NCBI RefSeq assembly: GCF_030295935.1 | Contig: NZ_AP027362.1 | Coordinates: 2,170,001-2,234,000 of the forward strand | Direction of reading: 5' to 3' | Origin: Thalassotalea piscium | GTDB taxonomy: Bacteria; Pseudomonadota; Gammaproteobacteria; Enterobacterales; Alteromonadaceae | DNA length: 64,000 bases | Part shown: piece by piece, positions 3,604 to 34,813 of the stretch | Layout of the letters: every line of letters starts with the position of its first letter | Position numbering within the stretch: position 1 is the stretch's first letter | The notes under the pieces: model-generated | What the model was told of the DNA's origin: nothing | Databases searched by the model: none | Seen by the model: only the letters and a program-made list of their open reading frames with translations | Position numbers and translations under genes: made by a program

Positions 3604-5514
3604 TTAGCTACGAGAGCTAACCTCTTCGCCTAATTTCGCGATAAAGTCTTCAACCGACATTTTACCTAAATCTTCACCACCGCGTGTGCGAACTGCAATT
3701 TCACCACTTTCCATTTCTTTGTCGCCTACAACTAACAAATATGGAACACGCTTTAATGTGTGCTCGCGGATTTTAAAGCCTATTTTCTCATTTCTCAAGT
3801 CTAGTTTTGCTCTAAATCCATTTTCTTTTAGTTTTTTAACAACTTTTTCACAATATTCACCCTGTTTATCAGTAATATTCATTACCGTTGCTTGAACTGG
3901 TGACAACCAAGTTGGAAATTTCCCTGAATATTCTTCAATCAAAATGCCGATAAAACGTTCAAGTGAACCTAAAATGGCTCTATGGATCATTACTGGAATG
4001 TAACGTTCGTTATCTTCACCAACATAAGTTGCACCTAAACGCTCTGGTAATGCAAAATCTAGTTGTACTGTACCACATTGCCACGCTCTTCCTAAACAAT
4101 CCATTAAAGTAAATTCAATTTTAGGACCATAGAAAGCGCCTTCACCTGGAAGATATTCAAATTTAATGTCGCTGTCAGTTAGCGCCTGAGCAAGCCCAGC
4201 TTCGGCTTTATCCCATATTTCGTCACTACCAATGCGATTTTCTGGGCGTGTTGAAAGCTTAACAATAATATCTTCAAAACCAAATGAGCCATATACGTCG
4301 TAAACCATTTCAATGCATTTGGTTACTTCCGCCTGCACTTGTGATTCCATGCAGAAAATATGTGCATCATCTTGGGTAAAACCACGTACACGCATTAAGC
4401 CATGTAATGAACCTGACGGCTCATTACGATGACAACAACCAAATTCAGCAATACGTAGGGGTAAATCGCGGTACGATTTTAAGCCTTGGTTAAATATTTG
4501 TACATGGCCTGGACAGTTCATTGGTTTTATTGCGTATTCACGCTTTTCAGATTCAGTGGTAAACATGCCGTCTGCATATTTGTCCCAATGTCCTGATTTT
4601 TCCCAAAGCGTTCTATCCATCATCATTGGCGCTTTAACTTCGTCGTAATCATATTCACGCAATTTTTCACGAACGAACTTTTCTAATTCAGTATAAATTG
4701 TCCAGCCATCGTTATGCCAAAACACCATACCGGGTGCTTCTTCTTGCCAATGAAACAAGTCTAATGTTTTTCCAATTTTACGATGATCGCGCTTTTCAGC
4801 TTCTGCTAAGCGAACGATATAGGCTTTAAGTTGCTTTTTATCAGCCCATGCTGTGCCGTAAATACGCTGCAACATTTTATTATCTGATTTACCACGCCAA
4901 TAAGCGCCAGCTACTTTCATTAATTTAAAATGGTGGCAATGTCTCATGCTCGGTACATGAGGCCCACGACACATATCAATATATTCTTGATGATGATACA
5001 ACGCTGGGGTATCAGATTTTTCTATGTTTTGGTCAAGAATCTCTAATTTGTAGGTTTCGCCACGTTCACTAAAAGCGTCGTAAGCATCTTGCCAAGAGCC
5101 TGTTTTCTTAACAACTTCGTATCCTGTACGTGCTAACTCTGTCATGCGTTTTTCAAGTTTAACTAAGTCATCTTCTGAAATAGCTTCGTCTAGATCAACG
5201 TCATAATAAAAACCATTTTCAATCGTTGGACCAATTGCCATTTTCACATTGGGGTAAAGTTGCTTAATCGCATGCCCTAATAAATGCGCACAAGAATGAC
5301 GAATAATTTCTAAGCCTTCACTGTCTTTACTTGTAATTAATTGCAAATTAGCATCAGCAGTGATTAGTTCACAGGCATCAACAAGCTCGCCATTAATACG
5401 ACCAGCGATGGTCGCCTTGGCTAAGCCTGGACCTATGTCTAGCGCAACATCCATCACAGAAATGGCATTTTCAAAAGAACGTTGACTTCCGTCAGGGAGA
5501 GTAATTACAGGCAT
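3604..5514 (-). CDS. thrS: Threonine--tRNA ligase
   Basis: A 636-residue class II synthetase that charges tRNA-Thr. Domains in order are the N-terminal TGS domain (about 1-61), the editing domain with the HxxxH pair at H73 and H77 ([15 protein letters not shown]) and MCRGPHVPS near 182, the catalytic core with the zinc cysteine in MNCPGHV near 336, motif 2 ([20 protein letters not shown]), motif 3 ([20 protein letters not shown]), and a C-terminal anticodon domain. It is the first gene of the thrS-infC-rpmI-rplT cluster. In E. coli ThrRS represses its own mRNA through a tRNA-like leader; I did not identify one in the roughly 200 bases upstream. Confidence 0.98.
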
Positions 5515-5711
5515 GATTTTTCCTTTAAACAGTGGCAGCGCATACCAAGCGACGCTTGTTATTTTTTCGTTTATTGAGTCAGATTTTAATAATGATTACT
5601 AAAGGGAAAACAAAGTAACTTATCAAATAATATAATGGCGAGAGAATATAGGGTAAAATCAGTAAAATTGCAATCAACTAACTTGCATTATTTATTATCA
5701 ACTAGAGAATT

Positions 5712-6590
5712 ATGACAACTATATTAGCATTAACTTTATCAGCTATTTTCTTTTCATTAATTTTAGGCGTGACCGCCAGTGCTAATGCTCAAACAGTAAC
5801 TGCTGAACAAGCATTAAAAGAAAAGCATTTGTATGAAAAATCTTTCAATCAAGCGCAATGGCAAACTTGGTATGAAACACCAACTATCAAAGTTAGCCAA
5901 CGACCTGCTATGTTTAAGGATTTATACCAATCTCACTAACTATGTGATCATTTCTACTGGTTAAAACAATCAACTACTGCGTTATTTATTTTATAATTAG
6001 AACAACTAGTTATAAAAATAAATGCCTTGTATTTGACTGTTTTCTCTGCGCATAAAATAGATCACTTAATTAATGAAACTGGTATTAATTGAGGTTAAAG
6101 CGGAAATTTCTGTTAACACAACCGATAAAGAGTTTTTAGCTTTTTTAAATGATACACAGCAGATGACGAGCTGGTTTGATAATACTCAGCAGATTAAACA
6201 GAGTACGAGTTCGAAAGGCGATGCTATTATTATGTTTCAGTTTAAATCAGTTTTTATTAGTAAAAGAAGACAAATGGTGGTTAAGTATAAAACAATAAAA
6301 CTAAATGCTGATAAAACACTGATCACCATTATTGATCAAGGAGAGCAACTTGACCCAACTTTATTGTTTTAAACACAACATTAATGAATGTACATAAAGC
6401 CCACTGGTTAATAGAGAATACTACCGACGATAATACCAACGATAAAATCAATGTGACTTATCAATTTGTTATTGATCCTAAAAGTCGTTTCCCTATGTGG
6501 TTAGCCAATAAATATTTATTAAAAAGCACGTTAAACACATTACAAAATATTAATGCTAAATTTTCGGGTGTCTTAGACAAACCACATTAA
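5712..6590 (+). pseudogene. START/SRPBCC-like exported protein, interrupted by a family B element and a frameshift
   Basis: Three coding pieces add up to one protein. The first (5712-5939) has a signal peptide and ends EQALKEKHLYEKSFNQ...FKDL before entering a repeat element. The second resumes in frame at about 6086 (IEVKAEISVNTTDKEFLAFL). The third (from 6369) continues NVHKAHWLIENTT to the stop at 6590. Removing the element 5927-6084 together with one copy of the flanking TTA restores GAT-TTA-ATT-GAG in frame. Adding one T to the T run at 6367-6370 joins pieces two and three. The pattern (signal peptide, MTSWFDNTQQIK, PMWLANKYLLKSTLNTLQNI) resembles START-domain lipid-binding proteins; that family call is moderate. 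The gene appears inactivated. Confidence 0.7.
5924..6085. repeat. Family B terminal-inverted-repeat element, 162 bp, inside a gene
   Basis: It starts ATACCAATCTCACTAACTAT and ends with the complement of ATACCAGTTTCATTAATTAA, giving inverted ends of about 30 bases with scattered mismatches that share GTGATC. TTA flanks the TACC...GGTA core on both sides, compatible with a short target duplication. It lacks the middle segment of the 212-bp copies. It supplies the stop codon of the first gene fragment and an ATG that falsely appears to start the second. Confidence 0.85.
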
Positions 6591-6616
6591 GCGTTATGCT
6601 GTTCTAGCAGTTTAGG

Positions 6617-7210
6617 TTAATTAGACCTATCGTCTTCACTAATACGACTTGCAACCGCTCCCATTTGTCCTTTGTATTTTGCGTCGTTACGTTTGTTATA
6701 TGGGCGTAAAGCACTTGAAGACATTGTTTCAAAGTTAAGCGCTGCTATTTTCATTTTAGGCCTTAGTGCAAGTGGTAATTTACCACTGTTATAAAATTCT
6801 AAAACAATTTGTCCTGACCAACCTGGATCTATTCTATGAGCGGTAACGTGTACCATTAAGCCTAAGCGCGCTAAAGATGAACGACCGTCTAACCAGCCAA
6901 CAATATCGTCGGGCAAAGTAACAGACTCATAAGTAACAGCTAATGCTAACTCCCCAGGGTGTAAAAAGAATGCTTCGCCATCAGGAATGACTATTTCATC
7001 ACTCATTACTGAGTCCATCGCTTTTTGCATCTCTTCTTTAGGGCCACTAAGATCTATATAGGGTGCTGTATGGTCTTGAAATACTCGAAATTCGTTACCT
7101 AAACGAATATCAACACTAACCCCTGAAATCATTGAGCTATCAGGCTTTGGGTCAATAATTATTTTACCCTGTTCAAGTAAACTCTCAATGTCTTTATCAC
7201 ACAATCTCAT
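6617..7210 (-). CDS. dcd: dCTP deaminase
   Basis: A 197-residue trimeric enzyme of the dUTPase superfamily that deaminates dCTP to dUTP, the main source of dUMP for thymidylate in gammaproteobacteria. Visible are the N-terminal [17 protein letters not shown], the [11 protein letters not shown] loop and the catalytic-site segment [20 protein letters not shown], followed by the C-terminal Y-rich tail [16 protein letters not shown] that closes over the nucleotide. The length matches E. coli Dcd (193). It lies 70 bases downstream of mrp in the same direction, an arrangement also seen in E. coli relatives, but it could have its own promoter. Confidence 0.97.
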
Positions 7211-7280
7211 TGTTGTTCTTCTTATCTCATTATTACTAATAACTTTTTTAATAAAGTTATTGCTAAAACAGTCCTAGCGA

Positions 7281-8381
7281 CTAATCGACAGTTTTTATCA
7301 ATATTTCACTGGTTAAAGGGCTGCGTTTATCAAACTGATGAAATAACCCCGAGGCTACTTTTGCAGCTATTCTACGGTATTGAAGTGCTACTTCGCCAGT
7401 GCTATTTTCTAGTACTTGTGAATTGCCCTGCTCCGCGCTCTCGCAAATACTAATATCGAGCGGTAACTGTCCTAGTAACTGACTGTTAAATTGATTTGCA
7501 ATTTTTTCACCGCCATTTTGGCCAAATAAATGGCTTTTATCTCCGCAATTTTTACAAATGTGATAGCTCATATTTTCAATAATACCTAATACAGGTACGT
7601 TAACTTCTTTAAACATGGCTAAGCCTTTTACTGCATCGTTTAATGCAATATCTTGCGGCGTAGTTATCACTATTGCTGCTGCAACAGGTACTTGTTGGGC
7701 TAAGGTTAATTGAATATCACCTGTGCCTGGAGGCATATCAACAATTAAATAATCAAGATCAGGCCATGCAGTTTCATTTAATAACTGTCCAAATGCACGA
7801 CTAGCCATAGGGCCTCGCCAAATGGTAGCGTCATTTTCATCGGTTAAAAAACCTATCGACATAGCCGCTAGGCCACCAGACTCAAGTGGTTGCATTTTTT
7901 TACCGTCGATTGATGATAGTCGCTGCCCTGCAAGACCAAGCATTTTAGGGATAGATGGGCCGTAAATATCGGCATCTAAAATACCAACATTCGCGCCTTC
8001 TTCTTGTAATGCATAAGCAAGATTAACCGCAGTTGTTGACTTGCCTACACCTCCTTTTCCAGAAGAAATAGCAATTATATTGGTAATACCTTCAATTGCA
8101 TGCTCTTTTACTTTTATCATTTTTACTTCTGCATCAATCAATACCGAGATTTCATGCTTTGCTAAAAGTTGCTCTGCAAAAATAGCTAACTCGCCCAAAC
8201 AAGGAAAAGGTACTGTAATTGATAAAACAATATTACTATTTTTAACGGATAATTTGGTTAATTCAGTTACTGCAGCAATACCCTTAGGAAAAATGTCGCT
8301 TTGATACGTTTGATAAAAGTCGCGAATTGTTTTGCTGTGCTCGTCAGATGGAGATTTACTTGAAAATAATTTGGAAAACAT
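7281..8381 (-). CDS. apbC: Iron-sulfur cluster carrier P-loop ATPase (Mrp/ApbC)
   Basis: The 366-residue protein has an N-terminal MIP18-like segment (about 1-90) and a P-loop NTPase domain with the deviant Walker A SSGKGGVGKSTTAVNLAYAL near residues 106-125, Walker B DYLIVDMPPGTGD and the CxxC of YHICKNCGDKSHLFG that holds a bridging Fe-S cluster in the family dimer. It is a cytosolic carrier that transfers Fe-S clusters to apoproteins. It is divergent from metG, with about 139 bases between the starts, an arrangement conserved in E. coli. Confidence 0.95.
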   Translation of the reverse strand: MFSKLFSSKSPSDEHSKTIRDFYQTYQSDIFPKGIAAVTELTKLSVKNSNIVLSITVPFPCLGELAIFAEQLLAKHEISVLIDAEVKMIKVKEHAIEGITNIIAISSGKGGVGKSTTAVNLAYALQEEGANVGILDADIYGPSIPKMLGLAGQRLSSIDGKKMQPLESGGLAAMSIGFLTDENDATIWRGPMASRAFGQLLNETAWPDLDYLIVDMPPGTGDIQLTLAQQVPVAAAIVITTPQDIALNDAVKGLAMFKEVNVPVLGIIENMSYHICKNCGDKSHLFGQNGGEKIANQFNSQLLGQLPLDISICESAEQGNSQVLENSTGEVALQYRRIAAKVASGLFHQFDKRSPLTSEILIKTVD

Positions 8382-27281: not shown

Positions 27282-28229
27282 TTAGCTTACTTTTTGATAA
27301 ACCAGATAAGCAGCAATTAAATCACTCACCGCAGTACCAACCGACTTAAATAACGTTATTTCTTCGGCTGATTGTCTCAGAACATTTGGTTTTTTACACA
27401 TATCGGCTAACTCTCCCTGAATACTTTCAGCCTTAAAAGTGCCTTCGGAAATAGGTATAAGCAACTCACCTGCTTCATGTAAAGTATTGGTTAAGCTGTC
27501 AACATAAACCCGCGCCTTTATCATTAATTTACTATCAACTTCCCTAGCCTCAGCGAGGTGATTGCCTAAACAATCAATATGTGAGCCTTTGGCAACTAAT
27601 TCACCATCAAACAGTGGCGTTTTTGAACCTGTCGCACAACAAATAATATCTACATAGGGCACTTCTTGTTCAACATCTAAGCTAGTATGAAAACTAATAT
27701 TTGGATATAACAGGCTAAATTCGTTAATGAGCTTTTGTACTTTATTCGCACTTCTGCCCCAGATAGTAATTTTTTTAAGATCACGAACACTGATATGCGC
27801 ATGCAGTAAATAAGCAGCTAAATTACCAGTTCCAAATAACATAAAGTGTTGAGAGTTTTCTCGAGACAATAATTGGCTAGCTAAAGCTGAAATCGCCGCA
27901 GTACGCCAATAAGTTACACTGGTACCGTCGACCAGTGCTAATGGCTCACCAGTTTCACGACGAAATAGCATAATTTTCGAGAATAAACCGGGAATGTCAT
28001 GCTTGGCATTATTATTTGGGAAATAAGTAAACATCTTATTGCCAATAACGTCCTCATTCCACGACGGCAGTAAAGCAAAGCCATCATGATTGTTTTGATC
28101 TTCAGGATCCAACAAATAAACTTGTCTTTGCGGCATATGAAATGGCTTACTAAAGCTTTGCTTAAGTAGCGGGATCAACTCAGCAAAGTTTAAACTTTGT
28201 TGTACTTGCTCTGTACTAATAACTTTCAT
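27282..28229 (-). CDS. Ornithine cyclodeaminase-family protein, probable pyrroline-2-carboxylate reductase
   Basis: The 315-residue protein has the ornithine cyclodeaminase/mu-crystallin fold with a Rossmann motif FGTGNLAAYLLHAHISVRDL (about 129-148) and the substrate-side LVDGTSVTYWRTAAISALAS. Members of this family include ornithine cyclodeaminase, alanine dehydrogenase and NAD(P)H-dependent delta1-pyrroline-2-carboxylate reductase. The last is favoured here because a trans-3-hydroxy-L-proline dehydratase, which makes delta1-pyrroline-2-carboxylate, is two genes upstream in the same operon. Start codon ATG at 28229; last gene of the operon. The assignment to reductase is inference from context. 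Confidence 0.8.
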   Translation of the reverse strand: MKVISTEQVQQSLNFAELIPLLKQSFSKPFHMPQRQVYLLDPEDQNNHDGFALLPSWNEDVIGNKMFTYFPNNNAKHDIPGLFSKIMLFRRETGEPLALVDGTSVTYWRTAAISALASQLLSRENSQHFMLFGTGNLAAYLLHAHISVRDLKKITIWGRSANKVQKLINEFSLLYPNISFHTSLDVEQEVPYVDIICCATGSKTPLFDGELVAKGSHIDCLGNHLAEAREVDSKLMIKARVYVDSLTNTLHEAGELLIPISEGTFKAESIQGELADMCKKPNVLRQSAEEITLFKSVGTAVSDLIAAYLVYQKVS

Positions 28230-28265
28230 TTTTTACTCATTTTAAAATTAGGCATTTATCAGCGC

Positions 28266-29348
28266 TTAAAGTTCCTGTAATTGTTTTGGTGCTTGTGTAA
28301 TTATTTCTAGGCCTTGTTCAGTTAAGACCACGTCATCTTCAATACGAACACCGCCCCAATTAGGTATATAAATTCCTGGTTCAATGGTAATAACACAGCC
28401 CTGCTCGATTTTTATAGTGCAATCAGGTCCAAGAAAAGGTTGTTCGTGCAACTGTAAGCCAACGCCATGACCTAAGCCCTCGCCTGCATAATCTTTATAT
28501 TCACTGCGGGCTAATACGTTGTCAGATTCTTCGTATAGTGCTTTCCCACTAACACCCGGTATTATTTTATCAAGTGCTGCTTGTTGAGCCGTTTGCACTA
28601 ATTGATATATCTGTTTCTGTTTATTATCAGCCTTACCAAAAATAAAGGTTCGGGTCATATCAGAGCGATACCCATTAATCACAGCACCAAAGTCTATTAA
28701 AATGATATCTCCTCTTTTAAGTTGTCTATTCGAGGGTATACCATGAGGAAGTGCACTACGCTCGCCAAAAAGTAAAATAGTCGCAAAAGAGACTTCCTCT
28801 GAGCCCAATACTGACATTTGATAGTCTAGCTCGATAGCCAATTCACGCTCAGTAATACCTTCTTTCACCAATGGAAGGATATTTGCTAAAGCTTGGTCTG
28901 CAATTTTGGCTGCTTGTTTTATAAAGGATAATTCATCAGCACTTTTGATCATGCGCAATTTTTCAATCACACCAACGACAGCATTAATGGCTAATACTTT
29001 CGTTTGTTGCATTATCTGTGCATTCATACCTTGCCACTGTTCGACATTAATGTGGGCACTTTCAAAAAGTAATGTTTGGCACTTATTCTGATTTAATAAT
29101 TCGATAATTAGGGCTGTAAGTGTTTGGTTTGCACGGTCACGACAAATAACACTAAAGCCAACAGCCTCCTGCTTTGCTTGTTCGAAATAGCGATAATCAG
29201 TAATTAAATAATTTGTATCTTCAGTGATTAATAGTGTTGCAGCATGCCCAGAAAACCCAGAGATATAGCGAATATTAATTTCACTAAATATAAGTACTCC
29301 ACACTGTGGAGCGGTTAACAATTGCTGGCGTAACTTTTTAATTTTCAT
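28266..29348 (-). CDS. Xaa-Pro peptidase (M24 family)
   Basis: The 360-residue protein has an N-terminal creatinase-like domain (1-about 130) and a C-terminal pita-bread metallopeptidase domain with all five dinuclear metal ligands visible: Asp in ILIDFGAVINGYRSD (two), His in GEGLGHGVGLQLHE, Glu in VITIEPGIY and Glu in GVRIEDDVVL. Such enzymes remove an N-terminal residue before proline or split Xaa-Pro dipeptides. In this operon it would release proline or hydroxyproline from imported peptides. It lies 36 bases upstream of the reductase gene and 78 after the dehydratase gene. Confidence 0.9.
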   Translation of the reverse strand: MKIKKLRQQLLTAPQCGVLIFSEINIRYISGFSGHAATLLITEDTNYLITDYRYFEQAKQEAVGFSVICRDRANQTLTALIIELLNQNKCQTLLFESAHINVEQWQGMNAQIMQQTKVLAINAVVGVIEKLRMIKSADELSFIKQAAKIADQALANILPLVKEGITERELAIELDYQMSVLGSEEVSFATILLFGERSALPHGIPSNRQLKRGDIILIDFGAVINGYRSDMTRTFIFGKADNKQKQIYQLVQTAQQAALDKIIPGVSGKALYEESDNVLARSEYKDYAGEGLGHGVGLQLHEQPFLGPDCTIKIEQGCVITIEPGIYIPNWGGVRIEDDVVLTEQGLEIITQAPKQLQEL

Positions 29349-29426
29349 GTGTAGATCTCATTTGTTATGTACTGCTATTTAATAGCCTTAATCTGGTTTT
29401 AACTGTATGAATAGACCGGTGTGTAT

Positions 29427-30530
29427 TTAGCGCAATAAAAAACCATTTTTAAGCGGATCTTTGGGGTCAAAAAGCCATTGTGCTTTTCCACTTACAAAGG
29501 CTTCGCCTGTTACATTTGCAATCACTGCATCATAATAATGTTCATTATTGCCATAACTAATACTTTCAATGGCTTTAACAACAAACTGACTACCCAAAAT
29601 ACTCTCAATAATAATGTTTTGCTGTAATGGTACTTCGCCTTTAGCAACATGCAACGCAATACGGCCGCTAACACCACTACCTGTAGGGCTTCTATCTAGC
29701 TCACCATCAGCAAATACACATACATTGCGGCTATGCACTGTATTATTATCAAACGTATTATCTTCATTATTTTGAACAAAAATAATACCATATAAAAAGC
29801 TTAAATCGGGTTCAAACGGATGTTTTACGGCAACTTTGTCGATAATCGCTTTTTTAATTCTTTTTCCATAGTCAGTAATTTTCCCTTGATGCTCTGGTGT
29901 TAAAATTAACCCTAAGCTTTGTGCTTGAACATACGCATAAAAAGCACCACCAAAAGCAATATCAAACTCAACTTTACCGATCCCCTCAACATCAACGCAT
30001 TGACCTTTTGCAAAAACAAATGAAGGAACTGAATTAAAACTCACTTGGGTAATAGTTGTATCTTGTGGATAGCCTTGAGCATGAGCCTCTGCATGTATTT
30101 GGCCACAAGGCACATCAATGATAACTTTTGTGGTGTTACCTGTCTGTATTACTGCACCCGACTCTACCGCGCATTTAGCTAATGCAATTACGGCATGACC
30201 ACACATGGTGCTATAACCTTCATTATGGATAAAAATTGCACCAAGATGACTATTTTCTCGCTCAGCTTTGGTAATAATCGCGCCATACATATCAGCATGG
30301 CCTCGAGGTTCAAACATTAATGCGCAACGTAAATCATCATAATTTTTTTGGCAGTCTCTTCTCATGGCTAAAATAGTATCGCCTTTAAGCAAAGGAAAGC
30401 CGCTAGTAATAATTCTTAACGGTTCACCACCGGTATGACACTCAAGGGTGTTGATTGTTAAAAAATCGTTATTGCTTGCCTTAGGCTGCCATTGTTCTAG
30501 CGTTTTTAATACATTGTTAATTCTATTCAT
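29427..30530 (-). CDS. trans-3-hydroxy-L-proline dehydratase (proline racemase superfamily)
   Basis: The 367-residue protein has the proline racemase fold. The first catalytic cysteine is present, Cys110 in STMCGHAVIAL. The second position is Thr283 in DRSPTGSGVSGR, where proline racemase and 4-hydroxyproline epimerase have Cys. A Cys/Thr pair is the known mark of trans-3-hydroxy-L-proline dehydratase, which removes water to give delta1-pyrroline-2-carboxylate. The reductase gene in the same operon would then make L-proline. Start MNRINNVLKTLEQ is 14 bases after the transporter stop. Substrate preference is inferred from the residue pair and neighbours. Confidence 0.85.
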   Translation of the reverse strand: MNRINNVLKTLEQWQPKASNNDFLTINTLECHTGGEPLRIITSGFPLLKGDTILAMRRDCQKNYDDLRCALMFEPRGHADMYGAIITKAERENSHLGAIFIHNEGYSTMCGHAVIALAKCAVESGAVIQTGNTTKVIIDVPCGQIHAEAHAQGYPQDTTITQVSFNSVPSFVFAKGQCVDVEGIGKVEFDIAFGGAFYAYVQAQSLGLILTPEHQGKITDYGKRIKKAIIDKVAVKHPFEPDLSFLYGIIFVQNNEDNTFDNNTVHSRNVCVFADGELDRSPTGSGVSGRIALHVAKGEVPLQQNIIIESILGSQFVVKAIESISYGNNEHYYDAVIANVTGEAFVSGKAQWLFDPKDPLKNGFLLR

Positions 30531-30544
30531 AAGGAAAACTCTAA

Positions 30545-32323
30545 TTACTCATTACTTTGGGCTGATTGAAAGTCTTGTTGTTTCTCAATGTCATTGACCA
30601 GTGTTCGGTTAAAAATATACAAGGCAATACAAGTTAAAAAACCTAGTAAAGCGATAATAAACCACATTAATAACGGGTTTGATAAATCTACCGCAAGAGA
30701 CTGATATAACCAACCAGATAACAAGCCACCAAAGAGATTACCCAATGCCATTGAAACAAAGTAATAGCCCATAAACATGGCGGCTTTATCTGGTGGAGCA
30801 AAAGAGGCAACATACTCTTGGCTTTTAGGCGAAGCTGTCATTTCTCCAACTGCAAATATAACGATCGACACGGCTATCATTAAGCCACCAAAAACAACTC
30901 CACTCGCTAGGCCACCTACAAACATGGCTATTGATAAAATGGCTGTGCCTGCTATTAATGTTGGCAGCGCTTTATACCTTTGAATAAAGCGACTGATCAC
31001 TATTTGAAAAAGAATAATCATTAAGAAGTCAATACTTAAAATAGTAGCAGGGTTGATCTGACGGTAATTTTCAGACCACTTTATTGCAAATTCAGTACTG
31101 TTTTGACCTAATTGGTCACCTGATTGTGCTAACACCGCAAAGGCATGAACAAGTTCGTTGTTAGGCACACGCACATCTAGCGAAGCTAATGTTGCCGATA
31201 TCTCTTTTAAGCTAATTGCGTTTTTATTTAAGTCTATATGCGTAAAATTAGTACTCAAACGTACTATTTCGCTGGTTAAGCTATCAATATTAACCGTGGT
31301 TAACATATCGTGTAACCAAGGGCTAAGACGATATAACAAACGCACTAGATCTGAAGTATCAACAAAATCGCGAATGAACACAGGTAAAGTAATAAATATT
31401 TGTAAATAAACAACCCAAAAACCAGTAAGAATTAACAAATAAACCATAAAGGCTTTATTACCAACCTGCATAGTTTGTTTATACCAAGGTATTTGAGTAT
31501 TGCTTGTATTGTTATTTTGGCGTGAAGCTTTAGTAGCCCATAAATCCCAAAAAATAGAAAGAGTAATTAAAGCAACGGCTATCAAACTCGTCACTTGACC
31601 ACTTTGGACAATACCTGCATAAAAAGAAACTAACAGTATTAGTAACGGCACTACTAAAAGCGCTAAACGGGTATTCCCTAAAACCTCCTGCATTTCTTTA
31701 AAAACCTGCTTCATGCCACCTGTTTTTGCATGGCGCTTAGGCTCTTTATAAAAAAGTAATAAAGGAATAAAGTTAACTGAAATCCAAAGAGCTGCAAAGG
31801 TAAAAACCCATTCCCAACCATAATTTTTCTGAATAATAGGTGCGAGTAATGGACCTAAAAAACCACCTATATTAACCATCATATAGAAAATACCAAAACC
31901 TAAACCGCGGTTGGAATTATCAGTACTACGACTAATTGTAGCGATAACTACAGGTTTAAATATGCCAGCTCCTAAGGCGATCAACATGAATATACCAATA
32001 AAACTAGTCAGACTTTCTGCATAACCTAAGAAGTAATAGCTAGGAGCCATTAAAACGAAAGAAAGCATAAACATTTTTCGGTAGCCAAACCTATCCGCCA
32101 ATGCACCTGAAACAACTGGAAATAGGTAAAGAAAAAATGGAACTATGCCCATGATCAAGCCACGCTCACTATTACCCAAACCTAAGCCACCTTGAGCACT
32201 TGGCGTCATAATATAGCTAGCAAGTAATGTATACATGCCATACCAAGCTAAGCGCTCAAAAATTTCCATTGTATTGGCAACATAAAAAGCTGCGGGAAAG
32301 GGTGTAATACTATTTTTATTCAT
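30545..32323 (-). CDS. POT/PTR-family proton-coupled peptide transporter
   Basis: A 592-residue inner-membrane protein of the major facilitator superfamily with about 12-14 helices. The POT signature ExxER is at residues 20-24 (EIFERLAWYG), and FYMMVNIGGFLGP matches the second family motif. It differs from typical bacterial POT transporters in a long hydrophilic insertion in the middle (about 320-420, LLYRLSPWLHDMLTTVNIDS...). It probably imports di- or tripeptides with protons. It is first in the operon with the hydroxyproline dehydratase, M24 peptidase and reductase, suggesting a role in proline-peptide uptake. Confidence 0.85.
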   Translation of the reverse strand: MNKNSITPFPAAFYVANTMEIFERLAWYGMYTLLASYIMTPSAQGGLGLGNSERGLIMGIVPFFLYLFPVVSGALADRFGYRKMFMLSFVLMAPSYYFLGYAESLTSFIGIFMLIALGAGIFKPVVIATISRSTDNSNRGLGFGIFYMMVNIGGFLGPLLAPIIQKNYGWEWVFTFAALWISVNFIPLLLFYKEPKRHAKTGGMKQVFKEMQEVLGNTRLALLVVPLLILLVSFYAGIVQSGQVTSLIAVALITLSIFWDLWATKASRQNNNTSNTQIPWYKQTMQVGNKAFMVYLLILTGFWVVYLQIFITLPVFIRDFVDTSDLVRLLYRLSPWLHDMLTTVNIDSLTSEIVRLSTNFTHIDLNKNAISLKEISATLASLDVRVPNNELVHAFAVLAQSGDQLGQNSTEFAIKWSENYRQINPATILSIDFLMIILFQIVISRFIQRYKALPTLIAGTAILSIAMFVGGLASGVVFGGLMIAVSIVIFAVGEMTASPKSQEYVASFAPPDKAAMFMGYYFVSMALGNLFGGLLSGWLYQSLAVDLSNPLLMWFIIALLGFLTCIALYIFNRTLVNDIEKQQDFQSAQSNE

Positions 32324-32365: not shown

Positions 32366-32388
32366 ACTATTGTATACAGTATATCTGA
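32366..32388. promoter_or_regulatory. Palindromic operator-like site upstream of the peptide/hydroxyproline operon
   Basis: The segment ATTGTATACAGTATATC contains the 8-base palindrome TGTATACA (32371-32378) and an overlapping TATAC-T-GTATA on the other strand, about 45 bases before the transporter start. Such GT/AC half-sites resemble those bound by GntR-type regulators that often govern hydroxyproline genes. No regulator gene is adjacent, so this is a weak, inferential call. Confidence 0.3.
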
Positions 32389-32869: not shown

Positions 32870-34813
32870 ATGATTAACTTAGCCAAACTACAAATTAAAA
32901 CCGCTGTTGCCGGTACCATGGTCTTAGCTCTATTTTTTACCACCTTATTTTCGTCAATGATTAATATCAATCAATTTTCGTCGATGTTTTATGATGTAAC
33001 AGAGAACGAACATCTCCCTAATGTGGTAAGTCGTGCAAAAGAGCAAATTCGTGCCGAACTACAAGTACCTATCACTCTGTCACAAGGAATTGCCCAAAAT
33101 ACACTTTTGCAAAGTTGGCTACAAAATGGCGAGAGTACTGAGCAACTGAACGATATAACGGGTTATTTTAACCGTTTCATCCAAGAGAATGGGGCTTTAC
33201 AAGTATTTTGGGTGTCATCAAAAACCAATAAGTACTATACCGAAGCTGGCTTATTTAAAACAGTTTCAACCAGCGTGCCAAGAGATGACTGGTTTTTCGA
33301 TATATTAGCAAAAAAACAAGATCTTGGACTGTCTATCGATGTTGATGAAAAAAGTGGTAAATTAACATTATTTGTTAATGTAATAGCTAAAACACTTGCC
33401 GGTGAACCATTAGGAGTGGCCGGCCTTGGCTACGATGTATCAACGATTACCGAGCTGGTTAAAAGTACTAAAGTCGGTGAAACTGGTTATATGTTTTTAG
33501 TCGGCAATGAAGGCAATATCACTGCTCACCATGATAGCAGTTTAATTGATAAGCAGATGAGCAGCATTTCAATTTATCAAAATATTCTTCAACAAGTTAT
33601 CTCTGCCAAAGGTGATTTTAACTTGATAGAAAGTAAAATAGAAAATAAGGATATGTATGTAGCTGTCACCGAATTATCTGAAATGGATTGGAAACTAGTG
33701 GCTATTTTACCTAAAGCTGAAATTGACAATAAAGTGAGTAGTGTAGTTTGGCTATCAATAGGTGTAAGCCTTTTAATTGCAGTGATATTTATTGGGCTTT
33801 CTTTTATGGTGGCTAAACAAGTAAGTCGCTCAGTACAAGATGTTGGGGATAAATTATTAACTATGTCTGGTAATGGCGGCGACTTAACAAGCCGACTCGA
33901 TGACAGCTACAACAACGAAGTTGGCCATTTAGCTACAGGGTTTAATGCGATTATGTCTCGTTTTGCTGATTTGGTAGTTGAAATTAAAACTGCTGAACAA
34001 GCAATTAATCAGGGCGTAATACAATTAAATGGTTTTTCGGGTAAATCAGTAGAATATGCACAAAACCAACGTGGACAAACTGAACAAGTTGCTACTGCGA
34101 TGACTGAAATGGGGCATACAATAAGCGAAGTGTCTTCCGTTGCTCATAAAACTGCAACAGATACCGAGTCAGCTATGGCCGACACTCACGAAACTAATGA
34201 AGTTATTGATCAGGTTTCAACCACCATGGGGATACTTGCCAGCTCTATGGGACAAACAGAACAAGCTATCGCAGACTTAGCCAGCCAGGCCGAGTCCATC
34301 AACTCTGTTGTTGAAGCTATTAGTAGTATTTCTCAACAAACAAACTTATTAGCACTTAATGCCGCTATTGAAGCAGCTCGTGCTGGAGAGCAAGGTCGTG
34401 GCTTTGCAGTTGTAGCAGATGAAGTTCGAACCCTTGCTAGCAGAACACAAGACTCCACAACAGAGATCAGAAGCCAAATTGAGCAATTACAAGAAGCCGC
34501 TTCTCAGTCACTAAATGCTATTCGCGAAGGCGCAAAAAGTAGTACGGAGCTTGCTAAAAGAGCACAAGACGCGACACAAGCATTAGCATCGATTAGAGCT
34601 AAGTTTGATAGCATTAGTGATGGTAATCATCAGGTAGCATCTGCAACCGAAGAACAATCTTCTGTTGTAGAGCATATTAATCAATCTGCTCAAAGTATTG
34701 CTGATACCGCAGCAATGGTACATACCAATGCCGAAAACGAAAAACAAGAAATCTTGAATCTACAAGAGCAAGCTGAACATATGAAACAGATCGTCAGCCA
34801 ATTTAAAGTTTGA
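32870..34813 (+). CDS. Methyl-accepting chemotaxis protein with dCache-type sensor
   Basis: The 647-residue receptor has a first membrane helix (about 12-32), a periplasmic double-Cache-like domain (about 35-285, including [14 protein letters not shown] and [20 protein letters not shown]), a second helix (about 290-312), a HAMP domain (about 313-366) and a cytoplasmic signalling domain whose tip is [20 protein letters not shown] followed by [19 protein letters not shown]. It should sense a small ligand and control CheA. The ligand is unknown. Its nearness to the peptide/hydroxyproline operon, divergently placed 546 bases away, invites but does not prove an amino acid or peptide ligand. Confidence 0.93.

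Follow-up and report, generated by a model that had tools for sequence, protein, structure and literature searches.

A stretch of 64,000 nucleotides from Thalassotalea piscium (contig NZ_AP027362.1, positions 2,170,001 to 2,234,000; hereafter the window) contains, at 27282-32323, four minus-strand genes that very probably form a HypR-type-regulated operon for the salvage of hydroxyproline and proline peptides, mainly from collagen. A first-pass annotation, made from the sequence alone, had described four genes in one direction with gaps of 14, 78 and 36 bp, and the list of open reading frames (ORFs) matches this exactly. The genes and a candidate operator are:

30545-32323, minus strand: POT-like MFS transporter ("PdtP"-like), 592 residues, first gene of the operon
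29427-30530, minus strand: proline-racemase-family enzyme with Cys110 and Thr283, 367 residues
28266-29348, minus strand: M24B Xaa-Pro peptidase (YpdF/PepQ-like), 360 residues, Creatinase_N plus Peptidase_M24
27282-28229, minus strand: probable Delta1-pyrroline-2-carboxylate reductase (ornithine cyclodeaminase/mu-crystallin family), 315 residues, model NF004793
32369-32380, no strand assigned: candidate operator, a palindrome (ATTGTATACAGT; on the minus strand ACTGTATACAAT) 45 bp ahead of where the transporter gene starts

In the proposed scheme, the POT-like symporter would carry small peptides into the cytoplasm, where the M24 enzyme would cleave Xaa-Pro and Xaa-Hyp bonds, releasing trans-3-hydroxy-L-proline among its products. 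The Cys/Thr enzyme would dehydrate this amino acid; the product would tautomerise to Delta1-pyrroline-2-carboxylate (Pyr2C), and the ornithine cyclodeaminase (OCD)-family reductase would convert Pyr2C, with NAD(P)H, to L-proline. PutA, encoded elsewhere in the genome, would then oxidise the proline. The substrates and the direction of transport are predictions, as are the regulator and its inducer.

The first-pass annotation had also proposed a complete route from peptide to proline. That proposal is supported computationally by family models, catalytic residues, a tree that places the dehydratase in its subfamily, conserved gene order and an operator shared with collagenase, peptidase and 4-hydroxyproline pathway genes. 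The link to collagen is well supported, because one palindrome is common to the operon, the collagenase, the peptidases and the 4-hydroxyproline genes, and because in relatives it stands before genes that lead operons and not before the internal M24 and reductase genes.

A probable common operator

The candidate operator overlaps a putative -10 element (TACAAT). Its minus-strand sequence fits the FadR-subfamily consensus with the 2-nucleotide GT-AC spacing given for HypR; published HypR sites have this spacing (PMC4494728), as does TTGTATACAA here. The consensus of the palindrome, ATTGTATACAAT, was surveyed through a genome search and in extracted sequence regions.

Within about 110 bp upstream, the T. 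piscium genome carries the palindrome at its only M9 collagenase gene; at two S9 peptidases and a DPP4-like S9 enzyme; at a second M24, an M20 and an M61 peptidase; and at a DHDPS-family gene and a TonB receptor. It is also present in the intergenic region of the 4-hydroxyproline epimerase (4HypE) and D-amino-acid oxidase genes. In the region around the putA gene no palindrome was found that would place PutA in the regulon. These findings suggest that the genes for collagen degradation, although they lie far apart in this genome, probably share one operator. A GntR-FCD regulator gene (G000:C1:1004349-1005014) adjoins that for 4HypE. We infer that the operon is a member of a HypR regulon, with this GntR protein as the candidate binder of the site at 32369-32380.

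Related loci show the same pattern. The palindrome lies ahead of the transporter gene at 11 of 23 loci, and ahead of ten dehydratase genes that lead their clusters; where the dehydratase gene follows the transporter gene, it has none. Other genes preceded by the palindrome are the second M24 gene (8/10), M9 genes (4/13) and D-amino-acid oxidase genes (9/14), as well as the 4HypE/D-amino-acid oxidase pair where that pair leads a cluster. By contrast with 9 of 203 other ORFs, no internal M24 gene (0/23) and no internal OCD gene (0/27) has it. Leading dehydratase genes in Oceanospirillaceae and in an Osedax symbiont are also preceded by the palindrome.

The suggestion that the organism uses collagen is supported by the palindrome at the sole collagenase gene and by M9-like genes close to the operon in about ten relatives. 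At one such locus (L036), an M9 collagenase gene (5467-7356) lies on the same strand, some 50 bp downstream of the reductase gene.

Separately, a perfect ATTGTATACAAT occurs at G000:C1:1090962 (L141); the oxaloacetate decarboxylase operon (oadGAB type) that lies about 190 bp downstream of it is a possible extra target.

Conserved gene order

The four products belong to Pfam families MFS/PTR2, Pro_racemase, Creatinase_N plus Peptidase_M24, and OCD_Mu_crystall. A survey of gene neighbourhoods, as the first-pass annotation had advised, found the order transporter, dehydratase, M24 peptidase, reductase at 22 other loci, nearly all from Colwelliaceae: Colwellia, Litorilituus, Thalassomonas and further genomes of the family. 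The flanking genes vary among these loci, so the constant order reflects more than chance proximity. Among 79 genomes of the family, orthologues of the transporter and of the M24 peptidase are each confined to genomes with a racemase-family gene (10/10 in both cases; p ~9e-6, not corrected for phylogeny).

The first-pass annotation regarded this pairing of peptide transporter and peptidase with dehydratase and reductase as less common than uptake of free hydroxyproline. Overall it does look less common, since 38 dehydratase loci from Burkholderiales contain no such transporter or M24 gene; these loci have the dehydratase-reductase pair alone. The arrangement is nevertheless typical of Colwelliaceae that carry the dehydratase, and HypR regulons had already been predicted to include both peptidases and a permease for proline peptides (PMC5343134), so it is not rare there.

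In Colwellia maritima the transporter gene is in two ORFs (L047:6181-7995), through a frameshift or a sequencing error. In the window, the operon and a gene for a dCache_1-HAMP-MCP chemoreceptor (32870-34813, plus strand) are divergently transcribed, 546 bp apart. The receptor could conceivably sense peptides or amino acids, but it was dropped as a part of the system, since the genes that flank the operon differ in relatives.

Two probable enzymes for 3-hydroxyproline

The 29427-30530 product matches PF05544 with 326 bits. Its best match of solved structure is Thermococcus litoralis 6r76 (E 4.6e-110), which we take to be T3LHypD, followed by human T3HypD (7qpo). The Cys110/Thr283 pair reported in the first-pass annotation was verified, and it is present in 86 of 86 matches with at least 42% identity. 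More distant racemase-family paralogues have Cys/Cys (C/C) wherever both positions are aligned, except for four lower-identity matches with Cys/Thr (C/T); 4HypE paralogues likewise have C/C. In the tree, a branch with support 100/99 separates the C/T proteins, 6r76 and 7qpo among them, from the 4HypE proteins and a proline racemase. The placement of 7qpo, on a long branch, is unsure. Most likely, the protein is a trans-3-hydroxy-L-proline dehydratase.

The reductase scores 399.6 bits with NF004793, the model for Pyr2C/Delta1-piperideine-2-carboxylate reductase, above its curated cut-off of 322, and it is far below the cut-offs of the other models tried. Its solved matches include 6t3e, a Pyr2C reductase. 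A second OCD-family paralogue is encoded elsewhere in the genome (G000:C1:2559268-2560029, L038; 27% identity).

These features bear on the alternative of general proline-peptide salvage, in which the racemase-family enzyme would be a proline racemase or 4HypE, and the OCD-family protein an ornithine cyclodeaminase or Delta1-pyrroline-5-carboxylate (P5C) reductase. Earlier annotations favour it: in the description of a Colwellia cluster, the reductase goes by the name P5C reductase/ornithine cyclodeaminase, and one epimerase is listed (PMC7883544). However, the enzyme has Cys/Thr in place of the Cys/Cys of racemases and epimerases; it groups with the dehydratases, apart from 4HypE and proline racemase; the OCD-family protein passes the cut-off of the Pyr2C reductase model and not those of others; and the genome has a genuine 4HypE at another locus (577 bits, cut-off 376). 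This alternative is quite unlikely.

Peptidase and transporter

The M24 protein matches PF00557 (229 bits) and Creatinase_N (67 bits). The motifs for all five metal ligands were located: D219, D230, H294, E323 and E337. Its best solved match is the proline dipeptidase 3q6d, and it resembles Xaa-Pro dipeptidases and YpdF.

The transporter is probably a proline/hydroxyproline di- or tripeptide:proton symporter, to judge from its residues and modelled fold. E20xxE23R24 (ExxER, transmembrane helix 1), K123 (helix 4) and E494 (helix 10), presumably the POT signature residues, are invariant in 12 homologues. With an AlphaFold (AF2) model of pLDDT 73.9, made with 12 homologues as input, Foldseek placed POT peptide-transporter structures at the top of its list; a second aligner ranked several other MFS folds equal to POT. 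The PF00854 score of 56.3 bits exceeds the cut-off of 27. The first-pass call of a POT transporter agrees with the motif residues, the PF00854 score and the top Foldseek matches. It is qualified by the second alignment, by a higher score with MFS_1 (145 bits) and by a score of 115.1 for the oligopeptide:proton symporter model TIGR00924, whose cut-off is 130.2; hence the protein is only "POT-like", a label for which motif residues and the modelled fold are the main grounds.

It is very unlikely that the transporter imports free hydroxyproline or proline, or exports something unrelated, with the peptidase a housekeeping enzyme and the pathway consisting of dehydratase and reductase only. The higher generic MFS score would fit such a scheme, as would the pairs that stand alone in Burkholderiales; set against it are the invariant POT residues and the Foldseek result, the strict synteny, and the palindrome held in common with collagenase and exopeptidase genes. 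Still less can the four genes be taken for independently expressed neighbours: for this speak the 78-bp gap and a sigma-70 promoter scan that did no better than shuffled sequence (17 found, 21.2 expected), whereas the order is kept at the 22 other loci despite changing flanks, and the operator stands before the first gene only, never before an internal M24 or OCD gene. The scan, which also returned one terminator-like site, inside a gene, is uninformative.

Relation to known systems

Regulons of HypR in Alteromonadales were predicted by comparative genomics in 2016 (PMC5343134). Like the operon and genome described here, they combine a GntR-type regulator and hydroxyproline genes with collagenases and with proline peptidases, YpdF among them; PdtP, a permease for proline di- and tripeptides, also belongs to them, as do a COG2423 enzyme and a TonB-dependent receptor. 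That study reads the COG2423 enzyme as ornithine cyclodeaminase and hypY as an alternative 4HypE, whereas here both enzymes are assigned to trans-3-hydroxyproline. It is our guess that hypY corresponds to the present dehydratase.

A collagen utilisation cluster was described in 2021 for Colwellia BB5, C. piezophila and C. psychrerythraea GAB14E (PMC7883544); two of the relatives' loci (L059 and L062) are those of C. piezophila ATCC BAA-637 and GAB14E. As in T. piscium, it comprises an MFS transporter, a YpdF-like aminopeptidase and an OCD-family reductase, along with a hydroxyproline dipeptidase, 4-hydroxyproline genes and an M9 collagenase. In T. piscium, by contrast, these components lie apart, with the common palindrome as their link. 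The text of that paper mentions no dehydratase, racemase or 3-hydroxyproline, and neither it nor the HypR study assigns a 3-hydroxyproline dehydratase.

Bacterial neighbourhoods published in 2014 likewise join the dehydratase to an OCD-family proline-ketimine reductase, and in Bacilli place peptidase families near the dehydratase genes (PMC4113996). They list TRAP and ABC transporters, whereas the present operon has a POT-like transporter and an enzyme of a Colwelliaceae lineage. The T. litoralis cluster (PMC4364671) supplies the closest solved dehydratase and the related reductase 6t3e; it is archaeal and contains proline dehydrogenases and a ProR-like gene, and the word "peptidase" is absent from the text. 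In the literature collection searched, there was no paper on the use of 3-hydroxyproline by Colwellia.

Several points weigh against a collagen-derived 3-hydroxyproline pathway. First, 3-hydroxyproline is a minor constituent of collagen, and peptides of proline and 4-hydroxyproline may be the main cargo. Second, the dehydratase scores 353.9 bits with the NCBIfam T3HypD equivalog model, still its best-scoring model, where the cut-off is 540, so that residues and phylogeny carry the assignment. Third, the transporter is divergent: all 12 homologues share an unusual, mainly helical insert of about 100 residues (residues about 322-424), which we place between transmembrane helices 7 and 8. Fourth, genomes whose racemase-family enzymes are all of the C/C type (G018, G041 and G062) have M24 orthologues as well, so there is no fixed link between the peptidase and 3-hydroxyproline. 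Finally, matches to the palindrome with one mismatch are not rare, with 21 places versus 12 for a reversed control; a peptidase or hydroxyproline gene was recognised downstream of ten of the 21 and of none of the 12 (Fisher p 0.004), the relevant classes having been chosen after the genes were seen and the control targets judged only from their first residues.

In vertebrate collagen, 3-hydroxyproline (3Hyp) occurs in the sequence Gly-3Hyp-4Hyp. Both Gly-3Hyp-4Hyp and Gly-3Hyp resist plasma peptidases, and mouse plasma leaves the Gly-3Hyp bond uncut (PMC9166765); an importer and an imidopeptidase are therefore sensible partners for a 3-hydroxyproline dehydratase. A narrower proposal is that the operon is dedicated to this tripeptide, which would be imported intact and cut by an M24 enzyme evolved for Gly-3Hyp, with 3Hyp passing to the dehydratase and 4Hyp to the separate 4HypE pathway. 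Such dedication is unlikely. The peptidase might be specialised for Gly-3Hyp, but this is not the favoured reading, since its orthologues are also found where only C/C-type enzymes exist; strict specialisation for 3-hydroxyproline was likewise weakened by this co-occurrence test.

Significance

With the HypR regulons, the Colwellia cluster and the peptidase genes near dehydratase genes already on record, the broader proposal of peptide salvage from collagen describes a system of a known kind: the operon belongs to a recognised collagen and hydroxyproline regulon and is well explained by it. New here are the assignment of both enzymes to 3-hydroxyproline, rather than to 4-hydroxyproline epimerisation and ornithine cyclodeamination, and the scattered but probably co-regulated collagen genes of T. 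piscium. For annotations of marine collagen clusters this suggests a correction: what was called "ornithine cyclodeaminase", and probably an "epimerase" as well, would fit better into a branch for 3-hydroxyproline. Moreover, if the peptidase does cut Gly-3Hyp, the operon would provide a way to clear a collagen fragment that withstands the peptidases of mammalian plasma.

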